Shown here piece after piece: positions 5,408 to 13,308 of a stretch of 64,000 nt of DNA. The notes beneath the pieces were generated by a model. It was not told where the DNA came from. It saw only the letters and a list, made by a program, of their open reading frames with translations, and did not search any database. Numbering within the stretch: position 1 is the first letter of the stretch; the number at the start of each line of letters is the position of its first letter. Origin of the DNA: Colwellia sp. (GTDB lineage: Bacteria > Pseudomonadota > Gammaproteobacteria > Enterobacterales > Alteromonadaceae); the NCBI GenBank assembly GCA_013215295.1, contig JABSOZ010000002.1, positions 1 to 64,000 on the forward strand, read 5' to 3'. Position numbers and translations under genes: made by a program.

Positions 5408-5576
5408 TACTGCAATTAGAGGCCTGCTGTTCTATTTTATTCAATGCTTTTTCCTGTCTAAAGATAATAAATTGATTCCGCATATTATGTTGTGGATGCG
5501 GTGTCATTTAGGGTAAAAATTATGTGTTTAAATGCTGACTTATGCTATAGTGCGCCTGAAATTTTTAGGGTGAATT

Positions 5577-5798
5577 ATGCTAGCTGAAAACTTAGAACTT
5601 ATTGAAACCATTGGTCTGAACTTATTTTTTGCTTTTATCTTTATTTTCATTGGCTTATCAATCCATGATGTAATGACAAAAAATGATGTTCCCAAAATGG
5701 GTCGTATGGTGGTTTATTTAGTTTTATTTTTAGGTTGTGCCGGTTTTGTTGCCAAAGGCATTATTCAACTGATTTGGGAAAGCCAAGGGGTTGGTTAA
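5577..5798 (+). CDS. Small membrane protein, DUF2788 family
   Basis: The 73-residue protein has two predicted membrane helices, about residues 10-30 (IGLNLFFAFIFIFIGLSI) and 44-66, joined by a short polar loop with the segment DVMTKNDVPKMGRM. It resembles the DUF2788 family common in Alteromonadales just upstream of ybfE. The start is preceded by AGGGTGA. The stop is 9 bp before ybfE, so the genes are likely one operon. No function is known. Confidence 0.8.
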   Translation: MLAENLELIETIGLNLFFAFIFIFIGLSIHDVMTKNDVPKMGRMVVYLVLFLGCAGFVAKGIIQLIWESQGVG

Positions 5799-5807
5799 TA
5801 AATAATA

Positions 5808-6086
5808 ATGGCAAAAGAAGCGAGTGATTTAACCACTATTGATTTGTTTAGTGATGAGAAGCGCCCTGGGCGACCAAAAACAAATCCACATTCGCGTAGC
5901 GTGCAAGTTAAAATTAACAAGCGCAACCAAGTGAAACGTGATAAAAACAATGGCTTAAAACGAGTTGAATTTAAAATACATTCAGATTTGTTTGAGCAGC
6001 TAGACGAACTGTCAAAAAATCAAGGCATTAGTCGTAGCGAACTTATTGAGTCGATCCTGAAAGCATCAGTGACGACAGAAAATTAA
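5808..6086 (+). CDS. ybfE: LexA-regulated protein YbfE, CopG/RHH-like
   Basis: The 92-residue protein aligns well by eye with E. coli YbfE: the N-terminal TTIDLF, the GRPKTNPHSR segment, INKRNQVKRDKNNGLKRVE, and a C-terminal helix pair LDELSKNQGISRSELIESIL that resembles a ribbon-helix-helix DNA-binding fold. The E. coli gene is LexA-regulated. I saw no clear LexA box immediately upstream here. The gene lies between the DUF2788 gene and fldA, the conserved context. Confidence 0.9.
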   Translation: MAKEASDLTTIDLFSDEKRPGRPKTNPHSRSVQVKINKRNQVKRDKNNGLKRVEFKIHSDLFEQLDELSKNQGISRSELIESILKASVTTEN

Positions 6087-6864: not shown

Positions 6865-7308
6865 ATGGCAGAACAAAACGAAGAGCTAAAAAGAGCCGGT
6901 TTAAAAATCACCCTGCCGCGGATAAAGATCCTTACTATTCTTCAAAACCCTAATAATCAGCATATTAGTGCCGAAGATGTCTACAAAATATTGCTTGAAC
7001 ACAACGAAGAAATTGGCCTAGCTACAGTTTACCGTGTGCTAAATCAGTTTGACGATGCAGGTATTGTTAGTCGTCATCATTTTGAAGGTGGGAAATCTGT
7101 TTTCGAATTGAGTCAGAAAAAACATCATGATCATCTAGTTTGCTTAAAATGCGGTAAAGTGGTTGAATTTGAAGATGATGTTATCGAAACTCGTCAAGAA
7201 GACATCGCTAAAAAGCATAAGATCACATTAACGAACCATAGCTTATACTTATATGGCGAATGTGAAGATGAAGAAGCTTGTGAGTTATACAGAACTTCTC
7301 ATAATTAA
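6865..7308 (+). CDS. fur: Ferric uptake regulator Fur
   Basis: The 147-residue iron-dependent repressor has an N-terminal winged helix (LKITLPRIKILTIL, ISAEDVYK, GLATVYRVLNQFDDAGIV) and a C-terminal dimerisation and metal domain. That domain contains HHDHLVCLKCGKVVEF and the second cysteine pair in CEDEEAC. The start ATG at 6865 has a weak AAAGTT upstream and no alternative. I did not find a convincing Fur box in the 170 bp upstream. A terminator follows at 7341. Confidence 0.97.
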   Translation: MAEQNEELKRAGLKITLPRIKILTILQNPNNQHISAEDVYKILLEHNEEIGLATVYRVLNQFDDAGIVSRHHFEGGKSVFELSQKKHHDHLVCLKCGKVVEFEDDVIETRQEDIAKKHKITLTNHSLYLYGECEDEEACELYRTSHN

Positions 7309-7340
7309 TAGCGAATTTTTTACCCCTATATTTTTATAGA

Positions 7341-7363
7341 AACCTGCTTTAGCAGGTTTTTTA
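7341..7363 (+). terminator. Intrinsic terminator of fur
   Basis: The hairpin AACCTGC-TTTA-GCAGGTT is followed by a T tract, 32 bp after the fur stop codon. Confidence 0.85.
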
Positions 7364-7436
7364 TTAAATAAAAAATATAAAAGCCATGTAACTCATCTAG
7401 GCAAACCTAATATCTAACGATTACTTTATTGTAGGC

Positions 7437-7980
7437 AAAGAAAAAGCGACTCTAGAGTCGCTTTTTTTCTATCTTAAATATAATGCTACAAATCCATTTG
7501 CTAATATTTAAACTTTCTTAATTTTTACGGAAATTACTTTACGTAAAAATCCTTTTACTTCAATTATATGACCATCCTTGATCAGACATCCATTTCAGTA
7601 CCAAACGTTTACTAAATCCATTTAACAAACTTTATATAAAAAGAAAATTAACTCTCTATCAAGCTTCCATTCTTAGTTGGTATCATCCTTAAACTTTTTG
7701 CATTATATGAGCGGTAAATTAAGTTAACTTCAGTGCTAGCTATTGCATCCATTCAAGTAAATTCCATTTATCTTCCATTCCATTGGAAATTCTAGTGTCC
7801 TTACTGCTAAATCCATTATCAACTAAATGTTAACTTATACCACTTTCCTTTTTGTACATCCTGTACAGTATTCAACAAATAGTTTATTCCTTAAACCTAT
7901 TTGCAATGTTCTCCATAACTTGTGTCGTCCTGACAGGATTAATATTAACATTAGTGGGAGATGTAACTAGAAAGGAGAAC
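7437..7980 (-). ncRNA. csrB: CsrB/CsrC-type CsrA-sequestering RNA, copy 1 (about 540 nt)
   Basis: There is no protein-coding signal here, but the minus strand carries 18 GGA motifs between 7490 and 7935, mostly as AUGGA, AAGGA or CAGGA. Many sit in the loops of short perfect inverted repeats, for example GTACAGGATGTAC near 7854 and TAAATGGATTTA near 7615. This is the architecture of CsrB/CsrC/RsmY/RsmZ RNAs, which sponge the translational regulator CsrA. The RNA ends in an intrinsic terminator at 7441-7466. A plausible promoter (TTGATA at 8011-8016, 18 bp spacer, TAAATA at 7987-7992) puts the 5' end near 7980. A GacA/UvrY-like box lies upstream at 8101-8118. It is longer than E. coli CsrB (about 370 nt). 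Confidence 0.85.
7441..7466 (-). terminator. Terminator of CsrB-like RNA 1, nearly symmetrical
   Basis: The perfect palindrome has arms AAAAAGCGACTCT/AGAGTCGCTTTTT. It yields a stable stem with U-rich tails on both strands. On the minus strand it ends the CsrB-like RNA. On the plus strand it is a back-up stop behind fur. Confidence 0.85.
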
Positions 7981-8100
7981 AAAATATATTTAGCTCGAAT
8001 TTTATAATATTATCAAAATTAAATTTTAATCTTATTTAACAATGAATTATGAATTATATATTTTTACACTTACAAATTATTGAATGATCACTGACGCTAC

Positions 8101-8118
8101 TGTGCGAAATAGCTTACA
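8101..8118. promoter_or_regulatory. GacA/UvrY/VarA-type upstream activating box for RNA 1
   Basis: TGTGCGAAATAGCTTACA matches 10 of the 12 fixed positions of the TGTAAG-N6-CTTACA box bound by GacA-family response regulators. It is about 100 bp upstream of the predicted -35 of RNA 1 and 130 bp upstream of the start of the divergent membrane-protein gene, so it could affect both. Confidence 0.65.
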
Positions 8119-8249
8119 TCAGAAGTATGACTTTGCCAGAAACTTTAAAAAATTGAAGTGTAACAATATGAAAATATCACTGAAAATATAAAGAAAATTG
8201 GTTACTCTTGCCAAAGATTTAAGACCAAATTATATTTTTAGGAGTAAAT

Positions 8250-9353
8250 GTGCTTTTGTTGAAGTCACTATTTTGTTTAACCGGTTCAGATAATCGTCGA
8301 AGATTCATTGCTATTCATCTAAGTTGCTATTTTTTATTTACTGTTGCCAGCGCTGTTTTATCTTTTAGCGGTTTACTGTCCTTCTTTGCATTATTGTTTT
8401 TCGTTGGTATTTGTACCTTTTCAACAAAGCGTCGTTTAAATGATGCTAACCTCAATATAAACTGGTTATTGGCTCCTGCAGGAAGTTTTTTAATTACTGG
8501 TTTGATCATTATAATGAGTGGCTACAGTACAAGTTACTGGCTGCTTATTTTTCCTTTAGTCATTTCTACATTATTAATGACCTATAAAAGTCAAAAAGAT
8601 AACCACATATTAGGTTACTTTGGCAATGTCGATTTAAGTCATTATGTAAAGCAAAAAAGTGCTCATCACGAAAGTAGAATAGAGCCAACTTTTAATAATA
8701 ACGATGTTCCACATTCACAATCTAGTAGCTATCATGAGACTAGCCATACTGTTGTTCAACGGGTTGAAACATCTAAAAACTCAAACTTTAAGTCTGACTA
8801 TGATATTGGTGAAGCGATAAGGCTAAAGCTATTCAACAATAAAAATGCTGTATTAACAATAACGATATTAACTATACTCGTCATAATGGCAATGATTGTG
8901 ACAGCCATTATTTCATCTTCTAACGAAGATAAAAACACCACTCAACAAAATAATGAATTAGCCACTAAAACTCAATCTGAACCGGCGATGTTACATGAAG
9001 TAACGCTACCTGATAACTTCTCATTATTGGTATCGTCTTTTGATGGCATTATCATAAGGTGGGAAGGTGACTCGACAAATATTCGTTTTTTATGGCAACA
9101 ACAAACAGCTCAAGGCGATGAAAGCTGTATGGCCATTACTTTTAATAATGGAGATAAGATTAGAACGCTAAATGTTATTCAACAAAATGATGGCGATTAT
9201 TTAGCTAAATTTTCTCCACTGGATACTAAAGTGCTAATAAGATATCTTGCAATTAGAAGCAGCTTTAAATTATGTGGATATAAGTTTTCACTCAACGGAA
9301 GTCAATCAACTTTAGGGAAACATAGCTATTATTCAAAGTTTATCGATGAATAA
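8250..9353 (+). CDS. Membrane protein with DUF805-like N-terminal region
   Basis: The 367-residue protein has three to four hydrophobic segments in residues 20-110, including the KRRLNDANLNINWLL stretch reminiscent of the RLHDIGRSGWW signature of DUF805. A polar linker (about 118-195), a further membrane helix (about 199-223) and a soluble C-terminal domain without recognised motifs follow. The start is GTG at 8250 with AGGAG five bases upstream. An ATG at 8248 in another frame gives only a four-residue peptide. The gene sits alone between two CsrB-like RNAs and runs opposite to both. No function can be assigned. Confidence 0.75.
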   Translation: MLLLKSLFCLTGSDNRRRFIAIHLSCYFLFTVASAVLSFSGLLSFFALLFFVGICTFSTKRRLNDANLNINWLLAPAGSFLITGLIIIMSGYSTSYWLLIFPLVISTLLMTYKSQKDNHILGYFGNVDLSHYVKQKSAHHESRIEPTFNNNDVPHSQSSSYHETSHTVVQRVETSKNSNFKSDYDIGEAIRLKLFNNKNAVLTITILTILVIMAMIVTAIISSSNEDKNTTQQNNELATKTQSEPAMLHEVTLPDNFSLLVSSFDGIIIRWEGDSTNIRFLWQQQTAQGDESCMAITFNNGDKIRTLNVIQQNDGDYLAKFSPLDTKVLIRYLAIRSSFKLCGYKFSLNGSQSTLGKHSYYSKFIDE

Positions 9354-9374
9354 TTAGTTAGACAAATTTCAGGC

Positions 9375-9715
9375 AAAAAAATACGGCCCTTAGAGCCGTA
9401 TTTCTGAACTAGCTTATATGCTTCCTGCATATTAATAGTGTCTCGCTTCATCCATAAAGAACTGTCCGTAGTATATCCTAATAGTCCATTACTTTCCGTT
9501 CATCTTCCTTGATTGCAACTCATCCTGAGTAACATCATTAGTGATTTGTTTGTCCTTAATTGCTAATCCATTAGCCGTTAATCCTTTAACTTAAGTCCAT
9601 TTACTCCCTTTGATGACATCTGTCATCCTACTTAATCCTTTAAGTGTCCATTGCCTATAAGAGTATTCTTACTCTTTCATCTTCCTGATACGTATCTTCC
9701 TGATGAATTAAATAA
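9375..9715 (-). ncRNA. csrB: CsrB/CsrC-type CsrA-sequestering RNA, copy 2 (about 340 nt)
   Basis: The minus strand carries 18 GGA motifs within about 290 nt, many in perfect short hairpins: CTAATGGATTAG, CTCAGGATGAG and TTAAAGGATTAA. A tandem TATCAGGAAGAT pair lies near the 5' end. The RNA ends with a strong intrinsic terminator at 9379-9403. Size and motif number are close to E. coli CsrB. A TTGATG element at 9743-9748 may be the -35, but the -10 is poor, as expected for an activator-dependent promoter, so the 5' end is approximate. A GacA/UvrY-like box is at 9872-9889. Confidence 0.9.
9379..9403 (-). terminator. Terminator of CsrB-like RNA 2
   Basis: On the minus strand the stem AAATACGGC/GCCGTATTT with a seven-base loop runs into seven T residues. 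The plus strand has only a short T stretch, so it mainly serves the RNA, although the convergent membrane-protein gene stops 25 bp away. Confidence 0.9.
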
Positions 9716-9871
9716 TACGTTAATTGAGATTTATTCGTACCCATCAAAATTTTTTATTTCATGCTAAAAACATGGAACAATCATGAAGAAATAAAAAAAA
9801 CAATAAAATCAGACGTTAAGAACAAAACAGAACTATCAACCTTATGTTATTTACTCAATATCTCACATCAA

Positions 9872-9889
9872 CGTAAGACATATCTCACA
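9872..9889. promoter_or_regulatory. GacA/UvrY/VarA-type upstream activating box for RNA 2
   Basis: Read on the minus strand, TGTGAGATATGTCTTACG matches 10 of 12 fixed positions of TGTAAG-N6-CTTACA. It lies about 125 bp upstream of the TTGATG element of RNA 2. Finding a similar box upstream of both GGA-rich RNAs strengthens both calls. Confidence 0.65.
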
Positions 9890-10065: not shown

Positions 10066-10710
10066 TTAGCTCTTTCTTCTGTAATGAATCATCAATGAAC
10101 CCGAAACATTACCTACCGAAAGCTCTTGAACAAATTCATAGTCAACTTCTGTAAAAAATTGTTTATATTTCTCTGTTGTTGCATAAACAGCAACGCCCTC
10201 ACTATCAGAGTGTTCTTCTAATATGGTATTTACAGCGGCTAAAAGATAATGCCCAAAGCCATGGTGTTGATGTAATGGGTGTATGGCAATAAAAGAAAGC
10301 ATATGAAATTTTTTCATGGGAACAGCAGCAAGTACTATTTTTTCTTTTTCTATCATTTGCTTTGTACTGAAGTAACCTGCTCCAAGCATCATTTTTAAGC
10401 GCCAGTGCCAGAATCGTTCAGAGCTTATACTTTCATCAGGGCTGTTTAAACAAGCAACACCCACCATTGCCTCTCCTAAATATAAGCCAACCATAGGTTG
10501 TTTTGCATGCCAAAAGGCACTTAACTCTTCACGAATAGCTGAACGTAACCTTTGCTCATAGTCATTCTTTTCATTGGAGAATATCTCCAAAAAAACAGGG
10601 TCATCATGATAAGACTGGTACAGTAAAGATGCCGCTAGTTTTAGGTCTTCGCCAGACAAATATGCTGCTCTTATATCAAGGTTTGTTTTATCACTTATTG
10701 CTTCAGACAT
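10066..10710 (-). CDS. GNAT-family N-acetyltransferase
   Basis: The 214-residue protein has a Gcn5-related acetyltransferase fold. The acetyl-CoA-binding core is at about residues 140-165, with IAIHPLHQHHGFGHYLLAAV corresponding to motif A (Q/RxxGxG/A, here HHGFGH). It is followed by AVYATTEKYKQFFTEVDYEFV, the usual beta-bulge and YKxxGF-like end. Substrate cannot be predicted. It is a single gene with its own terminator. Confidence 0.85.
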   Translation of the reverse strand: MSEAISDKTNLDIRAAYLSGEDLKLAASLLYQSYHDDPVFLEIFSNEKNDYEQRLRSAIREELSAFWHAKQPMVGLYLGEAMVGVACLNSPDESISSERFWHWRLKMMLGAGYFSTKQMIEKEKIVLAAVPMKKFHMLSFIAIHPLHQHHGFGHYLLAAVNTILEEHSDSEGVAVYATTEKYKQFFTEVDYEFVQELSVGNVSGSLMIHYRRKS

Positions 10711-11417: not shown

Positions 11418-11825
11418 ATGAATAAACCATATAACAATCAATACAATACTTGTGATATTCACCAAAATATAGCTTCTTTGACAATTAAAAGTAACTTTAT
11501 GACGATAACTGACGAAATAATAATCATCGCAAATCAACTCGCAAACCAAGGAAAAAGACCAACAGTAGCATTAGTTAAAACGCGACTGAGAAAATCGGCT
11601 CCGCTACCGACGATCATTTCAATATTAAGAAATTGGAAACATGATCCGAAGTTAATCGAAATGACTGTTGAAACTAACGATGTTGAAGTAGAAAAACAGC
11701 ACTTAACTTCAATTTCTGCTGAAATAGAAAAAGCAATAATAGCTGCATTACAGCCTATTCAAGCAGAATTAGTGGAATTAAGAGCTTTAGTTTGTGAATT
11801 ATCAAAACAGAAAAATAAAGATTAA
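11418..11825 (+). CDS. KfrA-N-like DNA-binding protein
   Basis: Residues from about 28 (MTITDEIIIIANQLANQGKRPTVALVK...) through LPTIISILRNWK resemble the N-terminal DNA-binding domain of KfrA-type proteins. A C-terminal helix (about 85-130) rich in Glu and Leu probably forms a coiled coil. The start is uncertain: ATG 11418 gives 135 residues and ATG 11499 gives a protein beginning at the recognised domain. Neither has a strong ribosome-binding site. It overlaps the convergent syd stop by 4 bp. A chromosomal regulator is likely, but the target is unknown. Confidence 0.7.
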   Translation: MNKPYNNQYNTCDIHQNIASLTIKSNFMTITDEIIIIANQLANQGKRPTVALVKTRLRKSAPLPTIISILRNWKHDPKLIEMTVETNDVEVEKQHLTSISAEIEKAIIAALQPIQAELVELRALVCELSKQKNKD

Positions 11826-12382
11826 GGAATTCGAGGTGTTAACATATTCATAAAACTGGTGAGTGAATCAGCCACTTTTTTATGAGCCTCGCAACCCACT
11901 TTCTCGACCCAAACTTCTCCGTTGTCATTATTTAAACTTAGGATGATATTATCATCGTCTGTGAGTGCAAAGAATAATGTTAGAGGCTGTTTTAGTTTCT
12001 GTTTCATTAAAACATGACCAATCAAGTTTTCTTGTAAGCGCTGAAAATCATCTTCACTCCAAGCAAAAAGTAAAGATAACGCCCCTTCAATACAGTTTGC
12101 ATCTAATGTATCGCTATAAAGCGTAGTGAAATAGGTCTTGAAATCAGCATGTATAGTTATTTCTAAAGCTTCTTCAACATTATCAAAACTTATCGACTCA
12201 CGTATTTCACTAGGCTGCCAATACTGGTGATTTCCATCATAATCTCCTGATAAACAAGGAGAAGGCCATTTTTCATCTTTTTCAATAAGTGGTAAATGTT
12301 GATACTTCGCTTGGTATGATGATAAATACTTTTGTGAAAATAATGATAAAGATTGCATTAACTCGCAAGGTGATGATTTCAT
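11822..12382 (-). CDS. syd: SecY-interacting protein Syd
   Basis: The 186-residue protein matches Syd, a cytosolic factor that binds SecY and monitors translocon integrity. Recognisable blocks include the N-terminal QKYLSSYQAKYQHLP, WPSPCLSGD, YWQPSEI, FYTTLYSD-like FTTLYSDTLDA and the C-terminal FMNMLTPRI. E. coli Syd has 181 residues. It is divergent from queF with 62 bp between starts, the same pairing as in E. coli. Confidence 0.95.
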   Translation of the reverse strand: MKSSPCELMQSLSLFSQKYLSSYQAKYQHLPLIEKDEKWPSPCLSGDYDGNHQYWQPSEIRESISFDNVEEALEITIHADFKTYFTTLYSDTLDANCIEGALSLLFAWSEDDFQRLQENLIGHVLMKQKLKQPLTLFFALTDDDNIILSLNNDNGEVWVEKVGCEAHKKVADSLTSFMNMLTPRIP

Positions 12383-12444: not shown

Positions 12445-13308
12445 ATGACAAATTATAAAAACGCAACAGCTTTAAGCCAATTAACACTAGGAAAAACCAC
12501 TACTTATTGCAGTGAATATAACCCAGAACTCTTGCAAGCGGTACCTCGAAGTTTAAATAGAGACGGTTTAGCGATTTCAGCGGATAACTTACCCTTTATG
12601 GGTGAAGATGTTTGGTATGGTTACGAGCTGTCATGGCTAAATAGTTCAGGTAAGCCAATTGTTGCCGTTGCTGAATTTCGTTTTCCTTGTACTAGTGAAA
12701 ATATAGTAGAATCTAAGTCATTCAAATTATATTTGAATAGTTTTAATCAAAGTCGATTTCCGTCTTGGCAAGACGTCGAAAATTGTTTGGTAAAAGATCT
12801 ATCGAATATATGTGGAAGCATTGCGGCTGTAAAGCTATTTTCTGTCGATAACTGCCCTGCACTTCAGATCAGTCGTCAAGTATTTTCCGAAGAAACAATC
12901 TGTATTGATGACATTGAACTTGAAATCGAAAACTATCAACTTGACCCAACATTACTTATTGATGCTAATTGTCGAGATGAAGTAGTAGAAGGTGAAAGTT
13001 TAGTGAGCCACTTATTAAAATCGAATTGTTTAATTACAAATCAACCCGACTGGGCCAGTATATATATTCAATACAGCGGGAAAAAAATAGCACACGCCTC
13101 ACTATTAGCTTATTTAATATCATTTAGGCAACATAATGAGTTTCACGAACAATGTATTGAAAGAATATATTGTGATATAAAAAAGTATTGCGACGTTACT
13201 GACCTATCTGTTTTTGCTCGCTACACTAGAAGAGGAGGCTTAGATATAAACCCATTCAGATCCACTTCGAAATTACGAGCTCCGATGGGTAGAACACTAC
13301 GTCAATAA
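12445..13308 (+). CDS. queF: NADPH-dependent 7-cyano-7-deazaguanine reductase QueF (long form)
   Basis: QueF reduces preQ0 to preQ1 in queuosine tRNA modification. The 287-residue size and two T-fold halves fit the YqcD subfamily. The NADPH-binding motif ESKSFKLYLNSF is at about residues 89-100. The catalytic cysteine is in SNCLITNQPDW (about residue 195), and C-terminal CDIKKYC and YTRRGGLDINPFR blocks are present. I see no preQ1 riboswitch in the short upstream region. Confidence 0.96.
   Translation: MTNYKNATALSQLTLGKTTTYCSEYNPELLQAVPRSLNRDGLAISADNLPFMGEDVWYGYELSWLNSSGKPIVAVAEFRFPCTSENIVESKSFKLYLNSFNQSRFPSWQDVENCLVKDLSNICGSIAAVKLFSVDNCPALQISRQVFSEETICIDDIELEIENYQLDPTLLIDANCRDEVVEGESLVSHLLKSNCLITNQPDWASIYIQYSGKKIAHASLLAYLISFRQHNEFHEQCIERIYCDIKKYCDVTDLSVFARYTRRGGLDINPFRSTSKLRAPMGRTLRQ

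Follow-up and report, generated by a model that had tools for sequence, protein, structure and literature searches.

The 64,000-nt stretch of Colwellia DNA analysed here (the window) contains two minus-strand intergenic regions crowded with GGA motifs, which lie on either side of a single plus-strand gene, here called X. We were wondering whether both regions encode CsrB-type small RNAs and how a pair of them came to enclose such a gene. A preliminary description of this DNA had read them as RNAs of the CsrB/RsmZ type, and our analysis supports that reading. Based on conserved GGA motifs, an upstream box at fixed distance, a -10-like element, matches of RNA2 orthologues to the CsrB model and the gene neighbourhood, RNA1 and RNA2 are very probably two CsrB-family sRNA genes, predicted to act as CsrA sponges. 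The kind of RNA is already known; RNA1 and RNA2 are new members of it. The three central features are as follows.

7438..7935, minus strand: RNA1, predicted CsrB-type sRNA gene, 498 nt, 18 GGA, 30% GC
9374..9705, minus strand: RNA2, probable csrB orthologue, 332 nt, 18 GGA, 37% GC
8250..9353, plus strand: gene X, 367 aa, GTG start; predicted helical N-terminal half (probably membrane) with weak resemblance to DUF805, C-terminal domain without known fold

Recounting the minus strand of 7437-8000 and 9370-9760 gave 18 GGA in each region, in agreement with the number reported before, and the two lengths, previously put at about 540 and 340 nt, were refined to 498 and 332 nt. When both strands of the 64 kb were ranked, all 25 GGA-richest 350-nt windows fell into these two regions. 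RNA1 starts 314 nt from X and RNA2 ends 20 nt from it, and the list of open reading frames holds none of 50 aa or more on the same strand inside either RNA. The scant sequence identity between the two RNAs that had been remarked on was borne out: the best local match spans 24 nt (E 0.02), and global alignment yields a score of 42, compared with 25.4 ± 3.8 for shuffles.

Many of the GGA motifs can be placed in hairpin loops closed by at least four local base pairs, namely 11 of 18 in RNA1 (5.5 ± 2.0 in shuffles that preserve GGA, 3 of 500 reaching this number) and 8 of 18 in RNA2 (3.9 ± 1.9; 18 of 500). Local hairpins around GGA are enriched, as the preliminary description had it; in the global minimum-energy folds only 4 of 18 motifs lie in hairpin loops in each RNA (expected 1.5 ± 1.2 for RNA1 and 1.8 ± 1.2 for RNA2, with 10 and 17 of 200 shuffles, respectively, reaching four). 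Conservation of the motifs in related genomes was checked as well, and GGA outlast other triplets in both alignments: retention was 0.72 compared with 0.43 across five RNA1 sequences (7 of 5000 permutations reach this) and 0.59 compared with 0.14 across 25 RNA2 sequences (0 of 5000). The consensus structure of the 25 RNA2 sequences comprises a first hairpin, an internal GGA hairpin, a ATGCAGGATGCAT hairpin and the terminator. Within its helices 95.8% of cells pair (shuffles 90.0 ± 0.5) and 12 of 24 pairs changed on both sides (shuffles 4.6 ± 1.3); because related sequences may beat such shuffles without any structure, we also weighed a slid control, which gave 3 to 5.

Both RNAs are bounded by candidate signals for the start and end of transcription.

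7441..7466 (about), minus strand: RNA1 predicted intrinsic terminator hairpin, -13.0 kcal/mol, z -3.8
9377..9405 (about), minus strand: RNA2 predicted intrinsic terminator hairpin, -15.7 kcal/mol, z -5.4
7940..7947, minus strand: RNA1 -10-like element TAATATTA, alignment positions -17 to -10 relative to the first GGA
9710..9717, minus strand: RNA2 -10-like element TATTATTT, 6 of 8 positions identical to TAATATTA
8101..8118, minus strand: predicted UvrY/GacA box of RNA1, TGTAAGCTATTTCGCACA, 2 mismatches to TGTRAGN6CTTACA
9872..9889, minus strand: predicted UvrY/GacA box of RNA2, TGTGAGATATGTCTTACG, 1 mismatch to TGTRAGN6CTTACA

The terminators ascribed to both RNAs in the preliminary description were recovered as hairpins that none of 200 shuffles matched in either case, despite a generic terminator scan that listed neither of them, which we think reflects A-T pairs of the stem consuming the T run. 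Likewise, the GacA/UvrY-like boxes suspected upstream are present, and they begin 188 nt (RNA1) and 189 nt (RNA2) before the first GGA; their consensus also appears in a study of Shewanella (PMC3171408). Boxes with at most one mismatch were found upstream of 41 of 71 GGA clusters, compared with 4 of 1420 simulated sequences modelled on the upstream regions of those same clusters. Across 52 RNAs, preselected for a box followed by CAGGA 178-206 nt downstream, the spacing from box to first GGA is 188-193 nt, and the most conserved columns of their alignment include TAATATTA (-17 to -10) and the first hairpin, TGTCAGGA(C/A)GACA. The promoter layout is plain from this conservation, and we infer the start point, UvrY binding and activation. 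Used as a search pattern, the box and its spacing matched twice in the window's own genome, both times in the window (7928-8118 and 9698-9889), and thus yielded no third Csr RNA there, and it matched in 77 of 295 family genomes, with a reversed control of 0 in all rows listed. These counts are lower bounds, because the pattern overlooks real RNAs, as in one genome (G005) that has two by cluster and box search and none by pattern.

Comparison with covariance models gave a divided answer to the Rfam check that had been proposed at the outset. At the gathering score, a curator's cut-off and not a molecular feature, no Rfam family matched in the window or in 11 RNA-bearing loci scanned, and a search of the own genome with RF00018 gave no match at cut-off. 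In a low-threshold search, on the other hand, RNA2 of five of six relatives (L127, L125, L130, L182 and L138) matched CsrB RF00018 along its full length, positions 1-356, with E values of 2.3e-13 to 1.2e-6 and scores of 59.3, 57.0, 43.7, 39.7 and 37.1 bits; for RNA2 of the sixth, L150, a CsrB match was absent at E 0.01. Window RNA2 reached 8.4 bits with CsrB (partial, E 3.2), 14.9 with RsmY (E 0.17) and 15.8 with CsrC (E 0.073), values too low to call, and RNA1 had no CsrB-clan match in the low-score Rfam search of the window. A model built from the 3' part of RNA2 assigned 130.6 bits to RNA2 and 25.5 bits to RNA1 in the own genome, a search in which 150 of 1680 candidates were scored; weak full-length matches also occurred at C2:31901-32021 (21.9 bits) and C11:46981-47123 (17.8 bits). 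Two other assignments were discarded: the weak matches to STnc370, MicX and other Rfam families near 7334-7512 coincide with the hairpins that terminate fur and RNA1, and DUF805b RNA (RF02914) scored 13.5 bits at L130 against a cut-off of 35.6, was found in 2 of 79 genomes and gave none in the own genome.

The empty Rfam search at gathering score and the empty terminator scan are what one would expect if the intergenic DNA owed its many GGA to chance composition, coding sequence or a repeat and contained no RNA genes. We find this hardly credible in view of the conserved GGA, the covarying helices, the terminator hairpins, the fixed-spacing box, the CsrB matches of orthologues and the absence of open reading frames of 50 aa or more. 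Sponges such as these, which fall below Rfam cut-offs, can be detected by the pattern of box and spacing and with the model built from RNA2.

The genes around the two RNAs bear on the origin of each.

6865..7308, plus strand: fur, found beside RNA1 in four of the six loci from the window's genus
10066..10710, minus strand: GNAT-like gene, under the Pfam cut-off
11822..12382, minus strand: syd, adjoins csrB in E. coli too
12445..13308, plus strand: queF, adjoins syd in E. coli too

The context, with fur on one side and a single gene in between, had at first been taken as unfamiliar. Contrary to that view, RNA2 is followed by the GNAT-like gene, a DUF3192 gene, syd and queF, oriented as in E. 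coli K-12, where the order is yqcA-truC-yqcC-csrB-syd-queF. Because syd and queF follow as they do in E. coli, RNA2 is most likely csrB, and position together with the sequences of relatives makes it the probable csrB of the csrB-syd-queF neighbourhood. In 40 RNA-bearing stretches (the 39 loci described below plus L167), which extend no more than 6 kb either way, we found truC in 31, yqcC in 9, DUF3549 in 33 and DUF3301 in 33 before X. On the 3' side of X, a homologue of the GNAT-like gene was present in 27 of them, and syd and queF were detected in only 10 and 8, respectively.

RNA1, in turn, looks like a second csrB-type copy placed before gene X. In 10 linked loci that lack RNA1, the DUF3301 gene ends about 18-209 nt before X; in 14 loci that carry RNA1 this distance is about 650-817 nt, and two exceptions (L133 and L159) have other DNA between the two genes. 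Judging from gene order, DUF3549, DUF3301 and X, with X in third place, probably once made up an operon next to csrB, and RNA1 would have been inserted in an ancestor as a second copy between the DUF3301 gene and X, after which it would have kept its promoter layout as its body diverged and lengthened. In the window's genus, fur replaces the DUF3549-DUF3301 side in four of six loci; L123 has DUF3549-DUF3301, and L141 has two RNAs in succession 3' of X and none before it. RNA2-type genes in direct succession 3' of X occur at L141 (5074-5946) and L178 (4163-5945), the latter with clusters of 30 and 29 GGA, the second counted without a delimited end. We rejected fur as a conserved partner: a Fur search found 585 relatives, and one of 80 named loci has a GGA cluster, about 5.5 kb away. 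That cluster, 15 GGA in 300 nt on the plus strand of Thalassomonas sp. M1454 (L042, 11951-12250), is perhaps a Csr RNA.

It could be argued that only RNA2 is a working CsrA sponge and that RNA1 is a decaying copy or has another role, such as control of the divergent X. RNA1 is indeed the weaker of the two, with two mismatches in its box, 18 GGA in 498 nt compared with 18 in 332, 30% GC and 25.5 bits with the RNA2 model, and four g8 loci (L135, L143, L145 and L151) combine a wide or intermediate DUF3301-X gap with no RNA1 found, possibly marking a decayed copy. However, RNA1 keeps the first hairpin, the -10-like element and the box spacing, and in four relatives its GGA are retained above other triplets at a steady 18-20, which makes this alternative unlikely compared with two predicted sponges.

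Having placed both RNAs next to X, we addressed how general this association is. X was found in 69 of 246 family genomes, the window's among them. Of the other 68 loci, 67 were fetched (G024, with an E of 7.5e-4 and internal stops, was omitted), which gives 68 examined loci when the window is included. The listed GGA clusters no more than 3 kb from X all lie on the strand opposite X. An RNA, the call requiring a UvrY box with at most two mismatches or the first hairpin, lies within 3.5 kb of X in 39 of 68 loci from 11 of 18 genera, on the 3' side in 38, on the 5' side in 22 and on both sides in 21. Nine GGA clusters that lacked both the box and the first hairpin had been dropped before this count; of these, five, either overlapping X or some 2.7-2.8 kb away from it, were taken as coding DNA, the one upstream at L150 and that of L167 look real, L126 has perhaps a weak RNA1 and L179 is ambiguous. 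Genera with unlinked X (e.g. g62) have matches to the box-spacing pattern elsewhere in the genome. X and the pattern co-occur in 55 of 69 genomes compared with 12 of 177, a contrast that is confounded by kinship and assumes the same 246 genomes both times. Among X loci from other families, 18 of 20 have no GGA cluster, and weak clusters lie near X homologues at L222 (3836-4085 and 5511-5760) and L224.

The product of X had been called DUF805-like, a label that weakened on inspection: PF05656 (DUF805) matches 18 of 47 X members at E ≤0.1 (best 2.5e-4), and the window protein, which has no match at 0.01, is not among them. A structure model of 366 residues (mean pLDDT 79.6, pTM 0.48) contains four helices in the N-terminal third, a low-confidence stretch, a long helix and a strand-rich C-terminal domain; the helices of the model probably cross the membrane. 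The fold has no match in the PDB with E ≤0.001, and a sequence-profile search gave nothing below E 0.07. Among the 68 loci, the script-chosen start codon of X is GTG in 48, TTG in 11 and ATG in nine. These GTG or TTG starts (59 of 68) often follow a GGAG ribosome-binding site in T-rich DNA, and a weak start might matter for control by CsrA.

The tie between X and the Csr system rests on synteny. One explanation would be that X and the two RNAs work together as a functional unit, with X acting on the Csr RNAs or being itself under CsrA control. This would fit the 39 of 68 loci and 11 of 18 genera in which X lies within 3.5 kb of such RNAs, as well as the window's genus, in which RNA1, X and RNA2 stay together though the outer 5' neighbour is fur (four loci) or DUF3549-DUF3301 (L123). 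However, the same filter leaves 29 of 68 X loci without any such RNA; 18 of 20 loci in other families have no GGA cluster and the remaining two have weak ones, L141 has both RNAs 3' of X, and an inherited DUF3549-DUF3301-X order beside csrB accounts for the neighbourhood without any function. We thus consider a functional unit improbable.

Among close relatives, RNA2 has grown by internal repeats. At 5430-5877 in G002 (L122) there are 4.1 copies of a 110-nt unit, and at 5519-5793 in G001 (L120) 4.0 copies of a 69-nt unit. When the count runs from first hairpin to terminator, the GGA of RNA2 number 41 over 648 nt for G002, 34 over 530 nt for G001, 29 over 461 nt for G004 and 18 over 329 nt for the window; the earlier clusters may overrun these ends (36 and 30 became 34 and 29). 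The two RNAs of one locus reach 61 GGA together, and among published numbers E. coli CsrB has 22 (PMC7652899) and Pf1 has 25 (PMC11882849). These close relatives provide natural forms of RNA2 with 18, 29, 34 and 41 GGA, making the effect of sponge valency on CsrA directly testable. A bolder proposal, that this marine group has a Csr module, RNA1-X-RNA2, in which X works with the sponges, in their decay or as a CsrA target, and in which CsrA-site number evolves fast through the 69- and 110-nt repeats of RNA2, strikes us as unlikely.

The predicted partners of the sponges are encoded in the same genome, which has one CsrA (88.2 bits), a UvrY-type regulator above cut-off (401 bits) with a frame open to the terminal stop, and BarA, also above cut-off (1175.6 bits). 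In the mechanism that we propose, phosphorylated UvrY would bind to its box, whose centre lies about 175 nt before the RNA start, and activate the TAATATTA promoter. Through its GGA sites, which number up to 18 and lie partly in short hairpins, each RNA would tie up several CsrA dimers, and the mRNA targets of CsrA would be freed, as expected from the family.

Among the literature matches listed, no paper deals with Csr RNAs of Colwellia or with such X loci, apart from a partial match in Thalassotalea reported in PMC11882849. A close reference is E. coli CsrB (RF00018), which shares with the window RNAs the many GGA, the terminator and control by UvrY (predicted here), and with RNA2 the csrB-syd-queF order and orientations. 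E. coli CsrB has 22 GGA according to PMC7652899, and the window RNAs have 18 each. Unlike E. coli, the window has two RNA genes around X, with the GNAT-like and DUF3192 genes between RNA2 and syd; its RNAs score below the Rfam cut-off, and RNA1 measures 498 nt compared with an annotated 369 nt for csrB.

A precedent for a pair around one gene is provided by Shewanella oneidensis. According to PMC3171408, CsrB1 and CsrB2 (420 and 421 bp) have one gene between them and TGTAAGN6CTTACA boxes, and their expression was shown to depend on BarA/UvrY. There the intervening gene is a transposase, whereas in the window it is X, and the same paper describes the pair of S. putrefaciens CN-32 as adjacent. 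Several Csr RNAs per genome, as in the window, are also described for Pseudoalteromonas fuliginea in PMC11882849. Pf1, Pf2 and Pf3 have 25, 21 and 9 GGA and were shown to bind CsrA; unlike the window pair, they lie in separate intergenic regions. The authors report no significant matches outside the genus for Pf1 and Pf2, and partial ones (20-30% coverage) for Pf3, one of them in Thalassotalea sp. LPB0316. Finally, csrB2 and csrB3 of Aliivibrio salmonicida are neighbouring copies like those of the window, attributed to duplication in PMC6262261; the two are each other's closest relatives in the tree given there, whereas RNA1 and RNA2 have diverged widely.
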